From contig JAJDAH010000323.1 in the NCBI GenBank assembly GCA_029261965.1, positions 1-38,370 on the forward strand: a stretch of DNA of 38,370 nt. Reading direction: 5' to 3'. This DNA comes from Polyangiaceae bacterium (GTDB lineage: Bacteria > Myxococcota_A > Polyangia > Polyangiales > Polyangiaceae). Each line of letters opens with the position of its first letter. Position 1 is the stretch's first letter. A program made the translations under genes and the position numbers. The notes beneath the pieces were generated by a model. The model saw nothing but the letters and a program-made list of their open reading frames with translations, was not told where the DNA came from and did no database searches. Positions 2,025 to 14,131 of the stretch are shown here, in pieces.

Positions 2025-5000
2025 TTATCGCGCGCAACGAAAACCCGAACGCTGACGCGTGCCGACCAAGGTCAACGGTGTCGTCGCTTCCCCCGAGGGC
2101 GGCCATTCGCTGCCGGGCACGCGCGCCGCCTTCGGAATGTCGGCGCTTGCGCGCGCGGTCATCGCCTCGACGCACACTCCGAGCGGCGTCGCGAGCAGGC
2201 GAACCCGCTCGTCGTCGACCCGAACCTTCTCGGCGCCTCCGACGAGCTCGATGTGCGGCGCGACGTGGGGGGATCCGGCGAGCAGCCAGCCATCGTCGGA
2301 AACACCGCACACTGGAGGTGTCCTGCCGAGGGTTTCGGCGGACAGGTGCATCGGTGTGTCGACAACTCCCGACTCGAGGTCGATGGGGAACACGTACCAG
2401 CTCGACGCAGTCGCGCGCGTCTTTTCCTCCGTCACCCAAATCCCCACACTGTTGCCCCGCGCGTTGCGTACGAGCGTTGGCACGCCGCGCCCGGAGCGGG
2501 AGAGGGCTGGGTAGGTGCCGACTTTGGAAACTTGGTCACCTCGGATCTTCGCCACCACGAACGCGTGGCTGCCATTCATCGCGCCGACGTACCAAGCGTC
2601 CCCGACTTTGACGACGCCGCTGAGCGCATTCCGCCCGAGCAAGCCGTTGGGCACGTCCGCCTTGATGATCGACCGTGATTTTTCAAAGACGAACATCTCG
2701 GTCATCGACCGCGTCGCGATCGAGAGCACGCCTCCGGAACCGCCGGGCTCGAGAGACGCCGACCAACTCGAGTTCATCGAAAAACTCGGGTCGTGACCGA
2801 AGCGCTGCGCACCGACGACGAGATCGGCCCATGGCGCCGGGGTCGCGGTGGTCGACCACACCGAGTTCGTCACGGCGAAAGCATCGATGGCACGGAGCTG
2901 CCACCGCGCTTGCCTCGCCCACGCCGCGCCCTCGGGTCCCCACAAGTAACCGCGAAGTTGAACGTCGCGGCTGCTTATGCCCAGATCGATCGCGAGGTCC
3001 GTCGGCGCCCGCGCGGGAGGCGCGACACCGAAAAACGCCGGCCACGACGTGCTCTCGATGGCCGCAGCGCTCAATAGTCTCCCGAGTGAGCGGCGACGGA
3101 ACGTGCGACCCGACGATCGACGCGGGGGCGGAGACGTGTTGATGGATTTCACGACTTCCCCCGTTGGCGCGCAATGAAACAGCCACCGGCCACCGCGGCT
3201 GCGCTCGAACCGAGTCGAGGCGGGCTCAGGGGCCGTCGGCAGATCATCGTCGCGGTCGCCCTTTCCGCGCCATCCCACGCGTAGCCAATGGCCGAAAGCG
3301 CACCCGACGGGCGAGCAGCCACGTTCGAGCGCCGCCTCCCCACGCTTCGGCATCCCCACGCCGAGTCCACCGACTTGAACTGGAACGTCGAGCTCTCGCC
3401 ACGTGAAGCCCCCGTCGGTCGACTCCACCATCGTTCCCATCCGGCCGATCGAGAGACCGAAGGGGCCCGACAAGAGCGTACGGTCGAGCCCCTCTTTGGC
3501 GATTTCTCCCACGGTGACGGTGCCGTCGAGCTTCACCTTCACGCCCACGAAAGGGCCGGCCGCCGTGACCCAGCCGCGGAGCTCGCCCTTCTTGTATTCG
3601 ACGAAGCCATCGAGCCAGAGCCCCGCTTTCAAGAGCGCGACGGTGGACTTGTCCGCCTTGGGCAGCTTCATCCGAACGTTCTTGGCCTGCCCTTCGGCAT
3701 CGACCAGCGTCAACATACCGTTGGCGCCGTGGCGCGGCGGCACGAGCACCGCGGCCCTTCCATCGCGCAGGGCCACGACGCGCTCGGCGCCGAGATCGCC
3801 GCGAATCCGGATCTCTCGCACCTCACCCCCTCGGGTCACCACGCAATAGGCGCTGCTCGCGTCGGTGGGGTCTTGCTCGCGGTCACACGAGCTTCGGATC
3901 ACGAGCGCTCCGTTGCCGCTCGACGCGACGTAGCGCGGACCATCGAACTCGAGCACCGGTTTGAGAGTCAGCGGAGGGTGGAAGCTGTAGATGATGGTCT
4001 GGCCGCGGTCCACGCCGCACACGAACCCGAACGACTTCCCAAGCCGCACTCCGTCGCATCCCGCTCCCGCCGGTAACGCTCTGGGCTCGATCGCCAAGAC
4101 CTCCCCGTCGTCGAGGGAAATCCTCGCGAGCGCACCGCCATGGGCGACGATCGCGGTCTTCTTCGAGTCCGGCCAGCCATGCAGAAGCGCCGCCCTGAGC
4201 GGGACCCGGCCCAGCGGTCCAACGTGACGTCGGTTCTTGTCGTCCTTGGGGGGTTGGACAAAGCGCGACGAGGCGGCGAGACGTGAGAACAACCCGTCGG
4301 CGGTTCCGGCGTAGCCCTGCTGCCGGAGCACACCATTGGGATCCACGGCGAGTCGCCCGGAGGAGCTGTGGACGAGCAGTTTTCCGTTTTCGAAGGACAC
4401 GTGCGGCGACGTGGTTCGAAAACCCGCCGGGCGCCAGCTCGCTCCGGCGTCGAAGGTCACGAGTACACCGCGATACTCGGCGAAGACCGCTCCCTGCCAC
4501 GCGTCAGCAAACGCCATCGCGCCGAACGTCGGGCTCACCGGCAACGGTCCGAGATCCGTGAGCTCGCCGGACTCCGGATCGAGTGCCACCGTCTCGCGGC
4601 TGTTCTTCAGCCGGACGTAAATCCGATCGAAACCGGGAACGACACTCTCGGCACCAAAAGGCAAATTGGCCAGCGGTTCGAGCTCGCCGGTCCAGGTCTT
4701 CGAGCGCCACAACCAGGTGCTGCCGGATCCGGTCGTGTGAAAGAGGTACCCATCACCAAAACGCTCTGGCAATGACAGGCTTTGGATCCCGCCATCCTTT
4801 GGCAGGAGCTCGTTCGCACGGCGAAGAGTTCCATGGGGGCCGACGACGACGCGCATGCCGTAAACGATGTGGCGTTCGTCCCCAGCGGCGCCGACGTCAC
4901 GTAGATCCCGGCTCGACGACGGCGTGGGCATCAGGCGCGCGGGGCGGACGAACGCCGGAGCTTTCACGACCTGCCGGATGGCGGGCGCCGTGTCTGGAAG

Positions 5001-5078
5001 CTTGGCCGGCGATGCACGACCGCACGCGAGCGTGGCGAGGAAAACGACCGCCGCCCCACCGATCACTTTCCGGCTCAC
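2025..5078 (-). CDS. Large lipoprotein with Asp-box (BNR-like) beta-propeller character
   Basis: About 1017 residues from a GTG at 5078. The frame also offers a GTG at 5126, but the later start gives a compact signal (VSRK, hydrophobic core, LATLAC with lipid Cys near residue 19). Two Asp-box-like motifs, FDAGASW (about 209-215) and STDGGFTW (about 553-560), together with many short hydrophobic strands, point to sialidase/Ycf48-type propeller blades. Such domains bind ligands or scaffold; Asp boxes alone do not imply an enzyme. A more basic, lower-complexity segment around 660-720 may link two propellers. The gene runs back to back with asd on the other strand. Exact function unknown. Confidence 0.75.
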   Translation of the reverse strand: MSRKVIGGAAVVFLATLACGRASPAKLPDTAPAIRQVVKAPAFVRPARLMPTPSSSRDLRDVGAAGDERHIVYGMRVVVGPHGTLRRANELLPKDGGIQSLSLPERFGDGYLFHTTGSGSTWLWRSKTWTGELEPLANLPFGAESVVPGFDRIYVRLKNSRETVALDPESGELTDLGPLPVSPTFGAMAFADAWQGAVFAEYRGVLVTFDAGASWRPAGFRTTSPHVSFENGKLLVHSSSGRLAVDPNGVLRQQGYAGTADGLFSRLAASSRFVQPPKDDKNRRHVGPLGRVPLRAALLHGWPDSKKTAIVAHGGALARISLDDGEVLAIEPRALPAGAGCDGVRLGKSFGFVCGVDRGQTIIYSFHPPLTLKPVLEFDGPRYVASSGNGALVIRSSCDREQDPTDASSAYCVVTRGGEVREIRIRGDLGAERVVALRDGRAAVLVPPRHGANGMLTLVDAEGQAKNVRMKLPKADKSTVALLKAGLWLDGFVEYKKGELRGWVTAAGPFVGVKVKLDGTVTVGEIAKEGLDRTLLSGPFGLSIGRMGTMVESTDGGFTWRELDVPVQVGGLGVGMPKRGEAALERGCSPVGCAFGHWLRVGWRGKGDRDDDLPTAPEPASTRFERSRGGRWLFHCAPTGEVVKSINTSPPPRRSSGRTFRRRSLGRLLSAAAIESTSWPAFFGVAPPARAPTDLAIDLGISSRDVQLRGYLWGPEGAAWARQARWQLRAIDAFAVTNSVWSTTATPAPWADLVVGAQRFGHDPSFSMNSSWSASLEPGGSGGVLSIATRSMTEMFVFEKSRSIIKADVPNGLLGRNALSGVVKVGDAWYVGAMNGSHAFVVAKIRGDQVSKVGTYPALSRSGRGVPTLVRNARGNSVGIWVTEEKTRATASSWYVFPIDLESGVVDTPMHLSAETLGRTPPVCGVSDDGWLLAGSPHVAPHIELVGGAEKVRVDDERVRLLATPLGVCVEAMTARASADIPKAARVPGSEWPPSGEATTPLTLVGTRQRSGFRCAR

Positions 5079-5129
5079 TTCCCGAGGGTAGCAAGGCCGT
5101 GTGGGAGCGGTAGGCTTGCGCGTCACTTC

Positions 5130-7201: not shown

Positions 7202-7255
7202 CAGCCCCTTTCCACTCGGCGCCGGGCGCCCTACGTTACGCGTGACGTCGTGACG

Positions 7256-8212
7256 ATGGCCGCAGCCACAGAGCCCGACATCGGGCAAGTCGACCTGCTC
7301 GACGAAATTGTCCGCCTCAAGAAGGAACGGAACGCGGTTCTGTTGGCGCATTTCTACCAAGAGAGCGAAATCCAGGACGTCGCCGACTTCATCGGCGACT
7401 CGCTCGCCCTCGCTCGCGAAGCGGAGAAGACCAAGGCAGAAGTGATCTGCTTCGCGGGCGTTCACTTCATGGCGGAGACCGCGAAGATCCTCAACCCGGA
7501 GCGAATCGTCGTCGTGCCCGATCTCGACGCCGGCTGCTCTCTCGCGGACGGGTGCCCAGCCGATCGCCTCGAGCAGTGGCAAAGCCGGTTCCCCGACGAC
7601 GCAGTGACCATCAGCTACATCAATTGCTCCGCAGCGGTGAAAGCGCGAAGCGACATCATCTGCACGTCGAGCAACGCGAAGAAGATCGTCGAATCGGTGC
7701 CCGCGGACAAAACGATTCTCTTCGCGCCAGACAAGAATCTCGGCCGATACCTGATCAAGGAAACCGGGCGCCACATGGAACTCTACCCGGGGACGTGCAT
7801 CGTGCACGAGACATTCAGCGAGCGAAAGCTCGTCGAGCTACGGACCCGACACCCCGACGCGAAGCTCATCGCCCACCCGGAGTGCGAGGAGTCCCTTCTC
7901 GACACCGCCGACTACATCGGCTCGACGTCGAAGCTTCTGTCCTTCGTCGTAGAAGACGCCGCCGAGGCGTACATCGTCGCCACCGAGAGCGGCATTCTGC
8001 ATCAGATGCAGAAAAACGCGCCCGGCAAGACGCTCATCGCCGCTCCACCGGAGGGCAACTGCGCGTGCAACGAGTGCCCGTTCATGAAGCTCAACACCCC
8101 GGAGAAGCTGTACCTCGCCCTTCGCGATCTAAAACCACGCCTCGAGATGGATGAAGAGCTGCGGCTGCGCGCCAAGAAGCCCCTCGACCGGATGCTCGAG
8201 CTCAGTGCTTGA
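7256..8212 (+). CDS. nadA: Quinolinate synthase NadA
   Basis: 318 residues from the ATG at 7256; a GTG two codons earlier (7250) is also possible. NadA condenses iminoaspartate with dihydroxyacetone phosphate to quinolinate for NAD synthesis, using a [4Fe-4S] cluster. The three cluster cysteines align with the known ones: Cys94 in AGCSL, Cys181 in GTCIVH and Cys274 in NECP; the 94-181 spacing of 87 is that of E. coli. Other family motifs seen: [22 protein letters not shown] and APDKNLGRY. It follows thyX by 54 bases. nadB and nadC are not in the window. Its 3' end overlaps the convergent gene by 11 bases. Confidence 0.96.
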
Positions 8213-9588: not shown

Positions 9589-11493
9589 TCAGCTCGCCCC
9601 GCCGGGTTGAAAGAATCGTGAATCGATCGCCGAAGACGCCGTCAGCGGTCGGCCGGCGCACTCGTATTCCACCTCTGGCGCGATCCGAGAGCCCCCGTCC
9701 TCGTCGGCGACGAGCAGGATCGTACGGCGCGTCTCGTCGGCGAGGCGCGCCTTCGCCGCGGCAGCGACCACACGAGCAATGCCGACCATGCCCTTGAGGT
9801 GGCGAGCCGCCTGGGTGCACGGATTGAAAGACGTCGACCCATCGGGAAAGTGTGCGCTCGAGGCGCGGTCGTCGAGCGAAACGAGCTCTTCGAGCAGGCG
9901 ATCGAGTGTCGCGGGGTCACGTCGCAAGCCGCAATCGTTGCACATTGCCGTGGCCAAGTCGGCGTGCAGCGAGTGCACCGAGTCCCCGTCGGGTGTTTTG
10001 CCGGCGCTCACCATCGCGCTGAACTCGTCGTCGGCCGCGTTTTGCGCGGAGTCGAAGACCGAGCTCGGCAAGTCGAGCGCGCTCCGCGCCAGAGCCGAAC
10101 GATACGCGGCCATTCCGGCGGCGGCCATTCGCCCGGCGTGAACGAGCCTCAGCAGGGCATCGCCTTCGAGGCGGCAACCGCCCTCGTAGCCGTACTCGAC
10201 GTCGCCAGCGGCGTAGAGACCCGGAATGGTCGTGGCGTGGTTTCTCGGCGACTCTTCGACGAGCTCGCCGCTCTCGGTGGCCTCGAAGTCCACCCAGAGA
10301 CCGCCGTGGATGCCGGCCGGCGCCGGGCCGACGCGAATTGGCTGACTGTAGGGATCGATTCCACTCGCCCGGGCGAGCGAATCGAGCAGCGGCCCGAGCG
10401 AACGGCTGAGCTCGCTCCGTCGGAGGTGGGTCAGATCGAGGTACGCCAGCGGCTGTACGGCTCCATCGGAATCCGCGATGCCTCGGCCCTTGTCGACGAA
10501 CGCTTCGACCAGCGTCGTGGCGGCGTCCCAGCCCGACGCGAGGTTCCCGAGTTCGGCGAAGCGACGCTCGAGGATGTAGTCGCGCTCTTTCTCCGGGATC
10601 TCCACGCCAGCGCGTTTGTCGGCCGCCTCCCGCGGCAGCCAGATCCGCCCGCCGAGTGCGCGGGCTTTCTCCCCGACGGCGCGAGCTTTGTCCGCCGCGG
10701 GAAACGCCGTCGGGTGCACGTGCAGCAGATCCATGTTCGCCATCGCGGCGCCCTGACGATGAGCCGCCAGCGCTGCCGTGCCGGTCTGCCGGGTGCCGGC
10801 CGTGGATCGACTGAACACGTGGCCAACCCCACCGGTCGCGAGGCACACGGCATCGCCGGCGTGGGCTTTGATCCTCAGCGTACGAAGCTCTTGCGCCGCG
10901 ACCCCTACGGCAACGCCGTTGTCGTCGAGCACGACCTGCACGACCTCCCACCCTTCGAGGCGGTGCACCATCGTCTCACCGGGCACCTCGACGCCGTGCT
11001 CGTCCACGACGTCTTTGGCCTCCCAGCGCCTCACCTGCTCCGAAAGTGCGCTGACCACGTGCAGCCCGGTCGTCGACCCCGCGTACGCGGTTCTTTGCGC
11101 CGCGGTCCCGTCGGAGCCGCCCTGGGCGACTCGACCCTCGGTCGTCCGCTCGAACGGCACTCCCATCCGCTGCAGGCGCTCCAAAATCCCGGGCGCCGCT
11201 CGGGTCATCGCTTGGACCGGAGGCTGGTTCGCCAAGAAGCGCCCAGCTTCGACGGACTCCTCGAAATGATTCTGCGGGCTGTCGCCGGAGCCGTCGAGCC
11301 CGAGGGCCGCGCTCATGCCCGACTGCAAACAGGCCGACGCCGCTCGGCTCGATGGGCCGAGGCTGATCAACAAAACCGCCACACCGGCCTCACAAAGAGC
11401 GAGCGTGGTGGAGAGCCCGGCGACGCCGGAGCCGACGACGATCACGCGGCGAAGCTTGCCGCGCTCGCTCTTGAGGGGGCTCGTCTTGGCCAT
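9589..11493 (-). CDS. SdhA/FrdA-family flavoprotein subunit, divergent at catalytic positions
   Basis: 634 residues. The N-terminal FAD-binding motif VVGSGVAGLS (19-28) and long matches to type-B SdhA (GDSPQNHFEESVEAGRFLANQ, GGLWVDF, IPGLYAAGDVEY) place it in the family. His260 and Thr262 in HPTA, Arg278 and Arg441 are kept. However, the histidine that carries covalent FAD (SHS in B. subtilis SdhA) is Ala52 here (SSRAASACLQSGM). The HHRTAFAG histidines are AAQRTAYAG, and the HYSMGG histidine is replaced (PAGIHGG). NRLGANSLL reads CRLEGDALL. So either FAD is non-covalent and the activity altered, or this is not the main succinate dehydrogenase. The gene starts three bases after the sdhC-like stop. 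L-aspartate oxidase was considered but fits worse. Confidence 0.88.
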   Translation of the reverse strand: MAKTSPLKSERGKLRRVIVVGSGVAGLSTTLALCEAGVAVLLISLGPSSRAASACLQSGMSAALGLDGSGDSPQNHFEESVEAGRFLANQPPVQAMTRAAPGILERLQRMGVPFERTTEGRVAQGGSDGTAAQRTAYAGSTTGLHVVSALSEQVRRWEAKDVVDEHGVEVPGETMVHRLEGWEVVQVVLDDNGVAVGVAAQELRTLRIKAHAGDAVCLATGGVGHVFSRSTAGTRQTGTAALAAHRQGAAMANMDLLHVHPTAFPAADKARAVGEKARALGGRIWLPREAADKRAGVEIPEKERDYILERRFAELGNLASGWDAATTLVEAFVDKGRGIADSDGAVQPLAYLDLTHLRRSELSRSLGPLLDSLARASGIDPYSQPIRVGPAPAGIHGGLWVDFEATESGELVEESPRNHATTIPGLYAAGDVEYGYEGGCRLEGDALLRLVHAGRMAAAGMAAYRSALARSALDLPSSVFDSAQNAADDEFSAMVSAGKTPDGDSVHSLHADLATAMCNDCGLRRDPATLDRLLEELVSLDDRASSAHFPDGSTSFNPCTQAARHLKGMVGIARVVAAAAKARLADETRRTILLVADEDGGSRIAPEVEYECAGRPLTASSAIDSRFFQPGGAS

Positions 11494-11496
11494 GGG

Positions 11497-12216
11497 TCAG
11501 TTCACGTCCGAGCAGCTCATGGTTTGGCTACCTTTTTCCGCCATGCCCAACAGCGGCAGCTTCGAGCCCGTAGCGAAGTAGACGAGGGTGTTGGCGCCGA
11601 GGAAAAACAGAAAGATCCCGACGAAACCGAACACCGTCGCCGCCACCCGCTGCGACCGGACCGAAACCGTGATGCCCCAGGTGTTGCAGAACCCCCACAT
11701 GCCGTTGGCGAAGTGGAAGACGCACGAGCCCATGCCGACGAGGTACAGGATTGCCCGAAGCGGGATGCCGCCGGTGATGGTCGCCGACAGACTGGCGCAG
11801 AGCTTCGGGAACAGATCTCCTGGCACCATGTGCCCGAGTAGAATCTGTAGTCGGAACTCGTAGAAATGATAGCCGATGAACGCGAACGCAAAAATGCCGG
11901 TGACGCGTTGGAGCACGTACATCCAGTTGCGCGAATGGCTGTAGCTTCCGACGTTCCAACGTCCCCCGAAGCTCAGACTGATCCCGTACAAGGCGTGGAA
12001 CAAAAGCGGCAGGAGGACGAAGACGACCTCGAAGAACAACAGGTAAGGAGTATGCTCCGGGGCGGTGACGGCGCTGTCGAAATGCTTCCGCCCCCCGAGG
12101 GCGCTCGCGCGAGTCCACAGATGCACGACCAGAAACGCGCCAACGGGCAGCGCGCCCGTGAGGCTGAACAGCCGGTGTAGGACGAAGGCGCGGCGTTCTT
12201 TAGGAAAGAGGGGCAC
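11497..12216 (-). CDS. sdhC: Type-B succinate dehydrogenase cytochrome b558 membrane anchor
   Basis: 239 residues with five hydrophobic helices, the single-subunit dihaem anchor of Bacillus/Wolinella-type enzymes. The four haem-ligand histidines are all recognisable: His32 (GAFLVVHL), His74 (LFHALYG), His117 (GYHFYEF) and His168 (CVFHFANGMW). It anchors the flavoprotein and iron-sulfur subunits and exchanges electrons with quinone. The start is a GTG at 12216 with only a weak purine-rich site. It is the first gene of the C-A-B cluster and faces a lipoprotein gene on the other strand with 49 bases between them. Confidence 0.93.
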   Translation of the reverse strand: MPLFPKERRAFVLHRLFSLTGALPVGAFLVVHLWTRASALGGRKHFDSAVTAPEHTPYLLFFEVVFVLLPLLFHALYGISLSFGGRWNVGSYSHSRNWMYVLQRVTGIFAFAFIGYHFYEFRLQILLGHMVPGDLFPKLCASLSATITGGIPLRAILYLVGMGSCVFHFANGMWGFCNTWGITVSVRSQRVAATVFGFVGIFLFFLGANTLVYFATGSKLPLLGMAEKGSQTMSCSDVN

Positions 12217-12265
12217 CCTCGAGCCTGCTTTGGAGCTGCGTCACCGCGGAAAAAACCCCGGGTCG

Positions 12266-14131
12266 ATGCATTTCCGAGCCGCGGAATACGAGAACCCCAC
12301 CGCTCCGTCAAGCCGAGGCTCGCGGTGGATTCTGCTGGCTCTGATGCTCGTCGCGGCCCCCGTCCTCGGGTGCGGCAAAAAGGAGCCTTCTTCGCCGCCA
12401 CCCCAGAGCGCGCTCTCGGCCAGCCGAGAGGCCCAGGCCCAATTTCGAGTCCTGCACAAGCGCTGGACGGGGTCCACCGCCGCCGAGCGGCAGAAGCTGA
12501 AGGAACCCCTCGAGCAGTTCCTCGAACGCTTTCCGAGCGACAATCGGGCTCGCTTGGTCCGCGTCTATCTCGCGTGGCTCCACGTCGAACGAGGCGAGCT
12601 CGCCGTAGCGCGTGACCTCGCCGCCCAGACGAGGGAGGGGCCGCGCGGAGCGGCTCGAGATTTTGCAAACGTCGCCGAAGCCGCGGTGCTGGTCGGGGAG
12701 AAAAAACCAGAAAAGGCTCTCGCCCTTCTCGAACCGTTGCGCGGCAAGTTGGTGGACCCCGAAGAACGCTTGCTGTTCGGCGAGCAGCTCGTGCGAGCGG
12801 CGCTCGCCGCGAAGGAGTGGACCAAAGCCGTCGCGTACATGATGGGCTGGCTCTCCGAAGCGTCGACCGAGGACAGCGACGCCGTGATGGCCTCCATCGG
12901 GCGGCTGGTGCGCCGTGTCCCCAACGCCGAGCAGCTCGACAGCTTGAAGAAGCTCGACCGGCTGACGAGAAGCGAGTCCCCGGACGACTCGAGCGCGGCG
13001 AAAGCCCGAGCGTGGATGCGCAAGACGCTCTGGCGCCGTCTCGCCGACGTCGCCATCGAGAACGAGGACGGCCAGCTCGCTGAGCAGCTGCTCGCCTCGG
13101 GCCCGGCCCGGCTTCGCATCGGGGATGTCGGCGAACGGTTGCAACAGCTGGCCGCTGGCGGCAGCGTGTTGCCGCGGGTGGCGGGCCGCGCGGTGGGACT
13201 CGTGCTGAGTCTGGCGGACGAAACCAGTCGGCGACGGAGCTCCGAAGCGGCAGCGGGCATGTCACGCGCCCTCGGTCTGCCGAAAGCGGCAGGGAAGCAC
13301 GACGCGGTGCGGCTCTTCACTCGCGACGACGGCGGCGAAATGGACGGCGTGGAAAGAGCTCTCGCGGCGCTCGCCGGCGACGGCGCGACGGTGCTCGTCG
13401 CCGGCTTCGACGACGAGTCTGCGCGGCGCGCGTCGTCATACGCCGAGAAATCTTCGATCCCCGTCGTCCTGCTGCGCCATCCGAAGAAACTCGGCTCCCG
13501 CCATCAACACACCTTCGTGCTCGGAATGACCTCGAATGATGGCGCCGAGGCGCTCGAGGCGACGCTCCGAAAGGACGGCGTCACGTCGGTGGCTCGGGTG
13601 GGCCCCGGTGGCGTGCCCTGCGATTCGACGGCAGTGGCGGGTCAGCCGCGGTTCCCCGTCGGCCAGTGGCTGCGAACCCGAGCCGAAGCCCTGCTTTTGC
13701 TCGGCAGCGTCGGGTGCTCTCGCGACGCGATGGCCGAGGCTCGAGCGGCTGGACTCAGTCCGACGTTTGCCTTCGGCTTCGACTCGGCGGGTCTGCTCTT
13801 GGAGGTCGCGGAGGGCCGCGGGCTCGCGGTCGGCGCCGGCACCTTCCCCTACGACGCCGATGTGCCCTCGGAAGTCACGCGTTGGCGAAAGACCACCGGG
13901 TCGACCCCGACTTGGTTCGAAACGCTCGGTCACGATGCCGCGCTCTTGGCCGAAGCTGCGCTCAAGGGCCTTCCCCTCGACCGAGTCGACGACGCCAAAG
14001 CGGTGGCGGAGCTTCACGCCCGCGCCCTACGACGGCTTGCTGAAGCCAAGGCGCCACTCTGGTCGACTGAGAGCCGTGGGTTCGCGGGCAGGCGAGTGAT
14101 GTCTCGAAAGCTCGGCACGGTCCGTCGGTGA
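12266..14131 (+). CDS. Lipoprotein, TPR-like N-domain plus periplasmic-binding-type C-domain (LpoA-like layout)
   Basis: 621 residues from ATG 12266. The frame is open further upstream, but that part overlaps the sdhC-like gene and carries no signal. A rather long basic n-region, a hydrophobic core (21-32) and APVLGC give a lipid Cys at residue 36. Residues ~45-350 are helical and TPR-like (AQAQFRVLHKRW, ARLVRVYLAWLHVERGELAVARDLA). From ~390 on the protein resembles a type-1 periplasmic binding fold (DGATVLVAGFDDESARRAS, IPVVLLRHPKK, FAFGFDSAGLLLEV). This order matches LpoA, the outer-membrane activator of PBP1a, and branched-chain amino-acid binding proteins. The role in peptidoglycan synthesis is inference from the layout only. 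Confidence 0.78.
   Translation: MHFRAAEYENPTAPSSRGSRWILLALMLVAAPVLGCGKKEPSSPPPQSALSASREAQAQFRVLHKRWTGSTAAERQKLKEPLEQFLERFPSDNRARLVRVYLAWLHVERGELAVARDLAAQTREGPRGAARDFANVAEAAVLVGEKKPEKALALLEPLRGKLVDPEERLLFGEQLVRAALAAKEWTKAVAYMMGWLSEASTEDSDAVMASIGRLVRRVPNAEQLDSLKKLDRLTRSESPDDSSAAKARAWMRKTLWRRLADVAIENEDGQLAEQLLASGPARLRIGDVGERLQQLAAGGSVLPRVAGRAVGLVLSLADETSRRRSSEAAAGMSRALGLPKAAGKHDAVRLFTRDDGGEMDGVERALAALAGDGATVLVAGFDDESARRASSYAEKSSIPVVLLRHPKKLGSRHQHTFVLGMTSNDGAEALEATLRKDGVTSVARVGPGGVPCDSTAVAGQPRFPVGQWLRTRAEALLLLGSVGCSRDAMAEARAAGLSPTFAFGFDSAGLLLEVAEGRGLAVGAGTFPYDADVPSEVTRWRKTTGSTPTWFETLGHDAALLAEAALKGLPLDRVDDAKAVAELHARALRRLAEAKAPLWSTESRGFAGRRVMSRKLGTVRR

Follow-up and report, generated by a model that had tools for sequence, protein, structure and literature searches.

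An sdhCAB operon with a damaged flavoprotein

Complex II is usually regarded as inseparable from succinate/fumarate chemistry. What, then, could a complex II be doing whose flavoprotein has lost key residues for that chemistry while its partner subunits look intact? The question is raised by a 38,370-nucleotide contig of a Polyangiaceae bacterium (JAJDAH010000323.1, assembly GCA_029261965.1; here called the window). Its minus strand carries a type-B sdhC-sdhA-sdhB operon with gaps of a few to ~40 bases, in the following setting:

12065..14131, plus strand: divergent neighbour that matches Peripla_BP_6/TPR weakly; its real start probably lies further in
11497..12216, minus strand: sdhC, cytochrome b of the b558 type, 239 aa, GTG start
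9589..11493, minus strand: sdhA-like flavoprotein with a degenerate catalytic site, 634 aa
8665..9549, minus strand: sdhB, iron-sulfur subunit, 294 aa
8202..8636, minus strand: orf144, conserved small protein 3' of sdhB, 144 aa, no Pfam match

The sdhC-sdhA-sdhB order with a di-haem SdhC, the cysteine sets of SdhB, and the SdhA fold are those of a type-B succinate:quinone oxidoreductase. A preliminary description of this DNA held that the cofactor ligands of SdhC and SdhB are intact, and we found all four haem-ligand histidines (His32, His74, His117, and His168) and all 11 cluster cysteines (2Fe-2S, 4Fe-4S, and 3Fe-4S sets) in place. SdhB passes the NCBIfam cutoff for the type-B iron-sulfur subunit (299.9 versus 244 bits), and SdhC is borderline for the b558 family (94 versus 96). 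The sdhA frame contains no internal stop. Its product scores 452 bits, below the NCBIfam SdhA equivalog cutoff of 855, against 971 for a canonical orthologue of the same family.

Some further features of the region were recorded. The N-terminus of SdhB is extended by an acidic stretch of about 45 aa (residues 1 to 45) that is absent from most orthologues. The orf144 product has 49 to 57% identity to counterparts in several relatives; where found, it is always at the sdh locus, including after the loss of sdhA and sdhB. A long open reading frame on the minus strand (2025-5126; 1,033 aa) has no Pfam match.

Catalytic residues of the flavoprotein

We aligned the window SdhA with ~60 canonical orthologues. 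Residue roles were taken from the alignment to Escherichia coli SdhA and from established knowledge of the E. coli enzyme. The codons concerned are these:

11338..11340, minus strand: Ala52, site of the FAD-linking His (His in 60/60 canonical orthologues)
10714..10716, minus strand: His260 (HPTA), kept in the alignment
10660..10662, minus strand: Arg278, catalytic Arg site, kept in the alignment
10315..10317, minus strand: Ala393, site of the HYxMGG substrate His (His in 60/60 canonical orthologues)
10171..10173, minus strand: Arg441, substrate Arg site, kept in the alignment

The alignment bears out what had been read from the letters alone: the covalent-FAD histidine and the histidine of HYSMGG are both replaced by alanine, NRLGANSLL has become CRLEGDALL, and His260, Arg278, and Arg441 are retained. 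Glu275 is likewise kept, and the FAD Rossmann motif and ATGG are present. We also found that Gly replaces the conserved Ser at position 274, which corresponds to Thr254 of E. coli SdhA, and that Asp replaces Glu431 of the FAD site. The dicarboxylate site (His, Thr/Ser, Glu, Arg, His, and Arg) is thus incomplete at two positions (Ser274 to Gly and His393 to Ala), with the remaining four present. A third histidine previously counted as lost, that of HRTAFAG, has indeed changed (Gln133), but catalysis does not universally depend on it. In the canonical SdhAs of Chromatiaceae and Planctomycetota, the position is Lys or Arg, and the histidine is a local family feature. Histidines that had moved to nearby positions had been named as a possible objection to the reported losses. 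The 20 residues on either side of Ala52 include no histidine, and that of the FAD site has therefore not merely shifted; His396, at the Met position, sits 3 residues past Ala393.

Succinate oxidation by complex II needs covalent (histidyl) FAD, and related enzymes that bind FAD non-covalently reduce fumarate (PMC9557727). Since Ala52 takes the place of the histidine that marks type-B SdhA, the window complex is very probably not a succinate dehydrogenase. Fumarate reductases with non-covalent FAD are recognized by both substrate arginines together with the substrate histidine; here Arg278 and Arg441 are present and His393 is gone. The window protein itself may have some residual fumarate-reducing activity. 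Its NadB family score, 148.6 bits against a cutoff of 452.75, does not place it with L-aspartate oxidase.

Predicted fold and other succinate dehydrogenases in the genome

An AlphaFold2 model of the window SdhA (27 aligned sequences) had a pLDDT of 90.5 and a pTM of 0.93. In a PDB comparison, the model resembles SdhA/FrdA chains over its whole length (Z 46.5, rmsd 2.3 Å, and 545 residues aligned for E. coli FrdA 1kf6). The full-length match predicts a folded SdhA rather than debris.

The preliminary description had suggested that the classic enzyme may be elsewhere, and a genome search located it. The window's genome encodes four further full-length FAD_binding_2 proteins. One belongs to a canonical type-B sdhCAB on contig C308 (all motifs intact, 1127 bits versus the 866 cutoff) and another to an Sdh1-type sdhAB on C212, so the tricarboxylic acid cycle reaction is covered. 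The others are NadB on C388 (727 versus 629 bits) and an unrelated FAD dehydrogenase on C470. The quinolinate synthase gene nadA (7250-8212, plus strand) lies past orf144, convergent with the sdh operon. A joint function of the complex with NadA was considered and dropped: nadA is convergent, and the true NadB is encoded on C388.

Canonical and degenerate relatives

Orthologous SdhA was sought in 108 genomes of the family and in the rest of the order and was present in three families. In ~60 relatives, SdhA is canonical at every motif. Degenerate SdhA occurs in 16 Polyangiaceae genomes, the window's and 15 others. These comprise 13, among which L064 (G105) is only partly degenerate, and three with a shortened SdhA of ~458 aa (G021, G022, and G023) that lacks roughly window residues 284 to 347 and the C-terminus. 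The 458-aa form is also predicted to fold (AlphaFold pLDDT, 89.1). Rescanning with the alignment of degenerate copies gave 48 loci. All Chromatiaceae, Planctomycetota, and other groups in the motif table are canonical, leaving no degenerate SdhA outside Polyangiaceae there. No close relatives of the window protein were found among GTDB contigs, and plasmids held only distant SdhA relatives. We found no report of degenerate SdhA in myxobacteria or elsewhere in the open-licence literature.

Two irregular arrangements were seen among the loci. At L050 (G026; 3018-5017), sdhA is split over two overlapping frames (a frameshift or an assembly error), and sdhB is on another contig. In one genus (G041, L115, and G042, L046; also L249 and L250), sdhA is apart from sdhB (on another contig) and adjoins a 2-oxo-acid dehydrogenase-like gene.

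Canonical and degenerate operons occupy the same locus, the degenerate ones mostly so. The divergent neighbour of the window and often also tsaE lie upstream of sdhC in both alike. In a three-gene species tree, the degenerate genomes fall at four separate points, and two of these lie in genera that include canonical members (G041/G042; G105,G106/G107). Well-supported branches force at least three changes; a larger tree was also built. The SdhB, SdhA, and concatenated gene trees, in contrast, unite the degenerate copies (support of 99/94, 93/100, and 89/99), as would be expected if one old degenerate SDH lineage had spread or had persisted via differential loss. The copies sit on very long branches, which warn of attraction, and because of these branches the gene trees do not decide how many origins there were. 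The scatter over the species tree, the synteny common to degenerate and canonical operons, and the vertical grouping of G105, G106, and G107 (genus g48), which is not rejected (p-AU 0.25), all speak against a single old lineage. We therefore favour repeated independent damage, which is not proven, and regard the single lineage, a matter of history and not of function, as a serious but doubtful possibility.

Redundancy, gene loss, and selection

In at least four species, SdhC is all that is left of the operon. An sdhC remnant at the locus without sdhA and sdhB is clear in G094, G050, G014, and G071 and weak in G024 and G067; in G049, it lies at a contig end. As read from the sequences, the remnant SdhC keeps four haem histidines in G014 and G071 and fewer in the others. 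At L280, L281, L282, and L285, orphan sdhC remnants have neither sdhA nor sdhB beside them, and some keep four haem-ligand histidines.

All 16 degenerate genomes have another complete SDH, and no case of degeneration was thus seen without such a spare. In 15 of them, this is an SDH of the C308 type (motifs read and intact in 12, the window's genome included), and the sixteenth (G016) has a different canonical SDH (L047). The C308-type SDH is present in 58/108 family genomes and missing from 37 of the 58 canonical ones (Fisher P = 3.6e-5, uncorrected for relatedness).

The main rival to a retained function is plain erosion, in which a redundant operon decays slowly under relaxed selection without serving any purpose, the window representing a mid stage. 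It would account for the restriction to genomes with a second SDH, for the gradation found at a single locus (from degenerate SdhA through the truncated form in G021-23 to SdhC only in the four clear cases), and for the loss of haem ligands from some SdhC remnants. However, the frames are intact over deep divergence, and pseudogenes that old would be expected to carry stops and frameshifts.

The rates of substitution also tell against erosion. As the window copy has no close sister, dN/dS was estimated from pairs of relatives (NG86 with bootstrap); the window's own copy, outside these pairs, has an open frame. The ratio for degenerate SdhA ranged from 0.16 to 0.39, being 0.31 (0.22-0.44) for G019/G020, 0.29 (0.22-0.38) and 0.39 (0.31-0.47) within G021-23, and 0.16 (0.12-0.21) for G095/G096. 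All upper bounds were below 0.5. Canonical SdhA gave 0.05 to 0.22. In G022/G023, SdhA, SdhB, and SdhC had equal values (0.29, 0.31, and 0.31). Selection on degenerate SdhA in these relatives seems mostly relaxed, yet dN/dS is clearly below 1.

Conservation differs between the subunits. Degenerate SdhA retains 55% of 256 canonical-invariant columns, and its seven key active-site residues are retained in 46/90 cells (51%), no better than the SdhA average. The SdhB cysteines, in contrast, are retained in 131/132 cases in degenerate operons, while other invariant SdhB columns stand at ~64% (fractions derived from the table). Near-complete retention of cysteines does not fit erosion well, and its contrast with the active site argues most strongly that the electron-transfer part may still be wanted. 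The cysteines could alternatively persist since SdhB folds only with its clusters. We regard functionless decay as a less likely but live explanation.

Altered substrate or assembly artifact

The preliminary description had proposed an altered dicarboxylate or a different substrate. The window enzyme could then be a changed flavoenzyme with non-covalent FAD, such as a fumarate reductase or an enzyme that oxidizes or reduces another acid. The retention of His260, Glu275, Arg278, and Arg441, of the FAD Rossmann motif, and of ATGG fits such an enzyme, as does the reduction of fumarate by related enzymes with non-covalent FAD (PMC9557727), although the substrate His393 and Ser274 are lost. Comparison with the relatives weakens the proposal. 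The damage varies from copy to copy: among the 13, the FAD histidine is kept in 4, the HYxMGG histidine in 2, and each arginine in 8. Relatives with the same trait thus also lose Arg278 or Arg441, and no common new site was found among the degenerate SdhAs. In the three species with the shortened protein, part of the active-site lid is deleted. We consider a changed flavoenzyme improbable. An assembly chimera or contamination, conceivable because the source assembly comprises 480 contigs, is very improbable, as the gene order of the contig agrees with that of relatives and independent assemblies, including one of 5 contigs (G021), show this state again.

A possible role outside dicarboxylate chemistry

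The boldest reading, somewhat less likely than not, is a pseudo-complex II: an Fe-S/haem membrane complex capped by a dead SdhA, which may be selected in many Polyangiaceae for an electron transfer or structural role unrelated to dicarboxylates and may have had several origins after a second SDH had come to be present. In the reading that we prefer for the window itself and think fairly probable, SdhA is a non-catalytic folded scaffold, probably with non-covalent FAD or poor in FAD, and SdhB, with its three Fe-S clusters, and SdhC, with its two haems, are redox-competent and under selection. The second SDH would have made the operon redundant and lifted selection on the dicarboxylate site. The complex would still be selected because its membrane and Fe-S part serves some role outside dicarboxylate chemistry, and SdhA would be needed, as a scaffold or cap, to assemble or shield SdhB. 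In several lineages the retained role may have lapsed too, and sdhA and sdhB were then deleted. These deletions count against a retained role: at least four relatives do without both genes, so the role is dispensable. No partner protein was found either.

Known systems offer partial parallels. The window is like type-B SdhCAB (NCBIfam PRK08641/PRK08640 and TIGR01811/TIGR02046) in operon order, fold, SdhB clusters, and di-haem SdhC, and its operon is orthologous to the canonical Polyangium and Sorangium operons at the same locus, but the FAD-linking and substrate histidines are gone and SdhA falls below the family cutoff. Soluble fumarate reductases and L-aspartate oxidase, with non-covalent FAD, likewise lack the FAD-linking histidine; unlike the window complex, with its SdhB, SdhC, and partly lost site, they keep the dicarboxylate histidine and have no membrane anchor. 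A complex II membrane subunit, yeast Sdh3, is reused outside complex II, in TIM22 (PMC10238741). The likeness is that a complex II part is retained outside succinate oxidation; in TIM22, however, the membrane subunit is reused without haem, whereas the window keeps all three subunits and has the damage in its flavoprotein.

Polyangiaceae thus offer a natural series, from an intact enzyme, through one in which a dead flavoprotein is joined by intact Fe-S/haem subunits, to SdhC alone, all in genomes with a second SDH. The series lets comparative genetics test a non-catalytic role of complex II subunits, and it cautions that homology-based annotation of sdhA can mislead on activity. The window's bacterium and, repeatedly, its relatives seem to have kept a respiratory complex for a purpose other than its known reaction.
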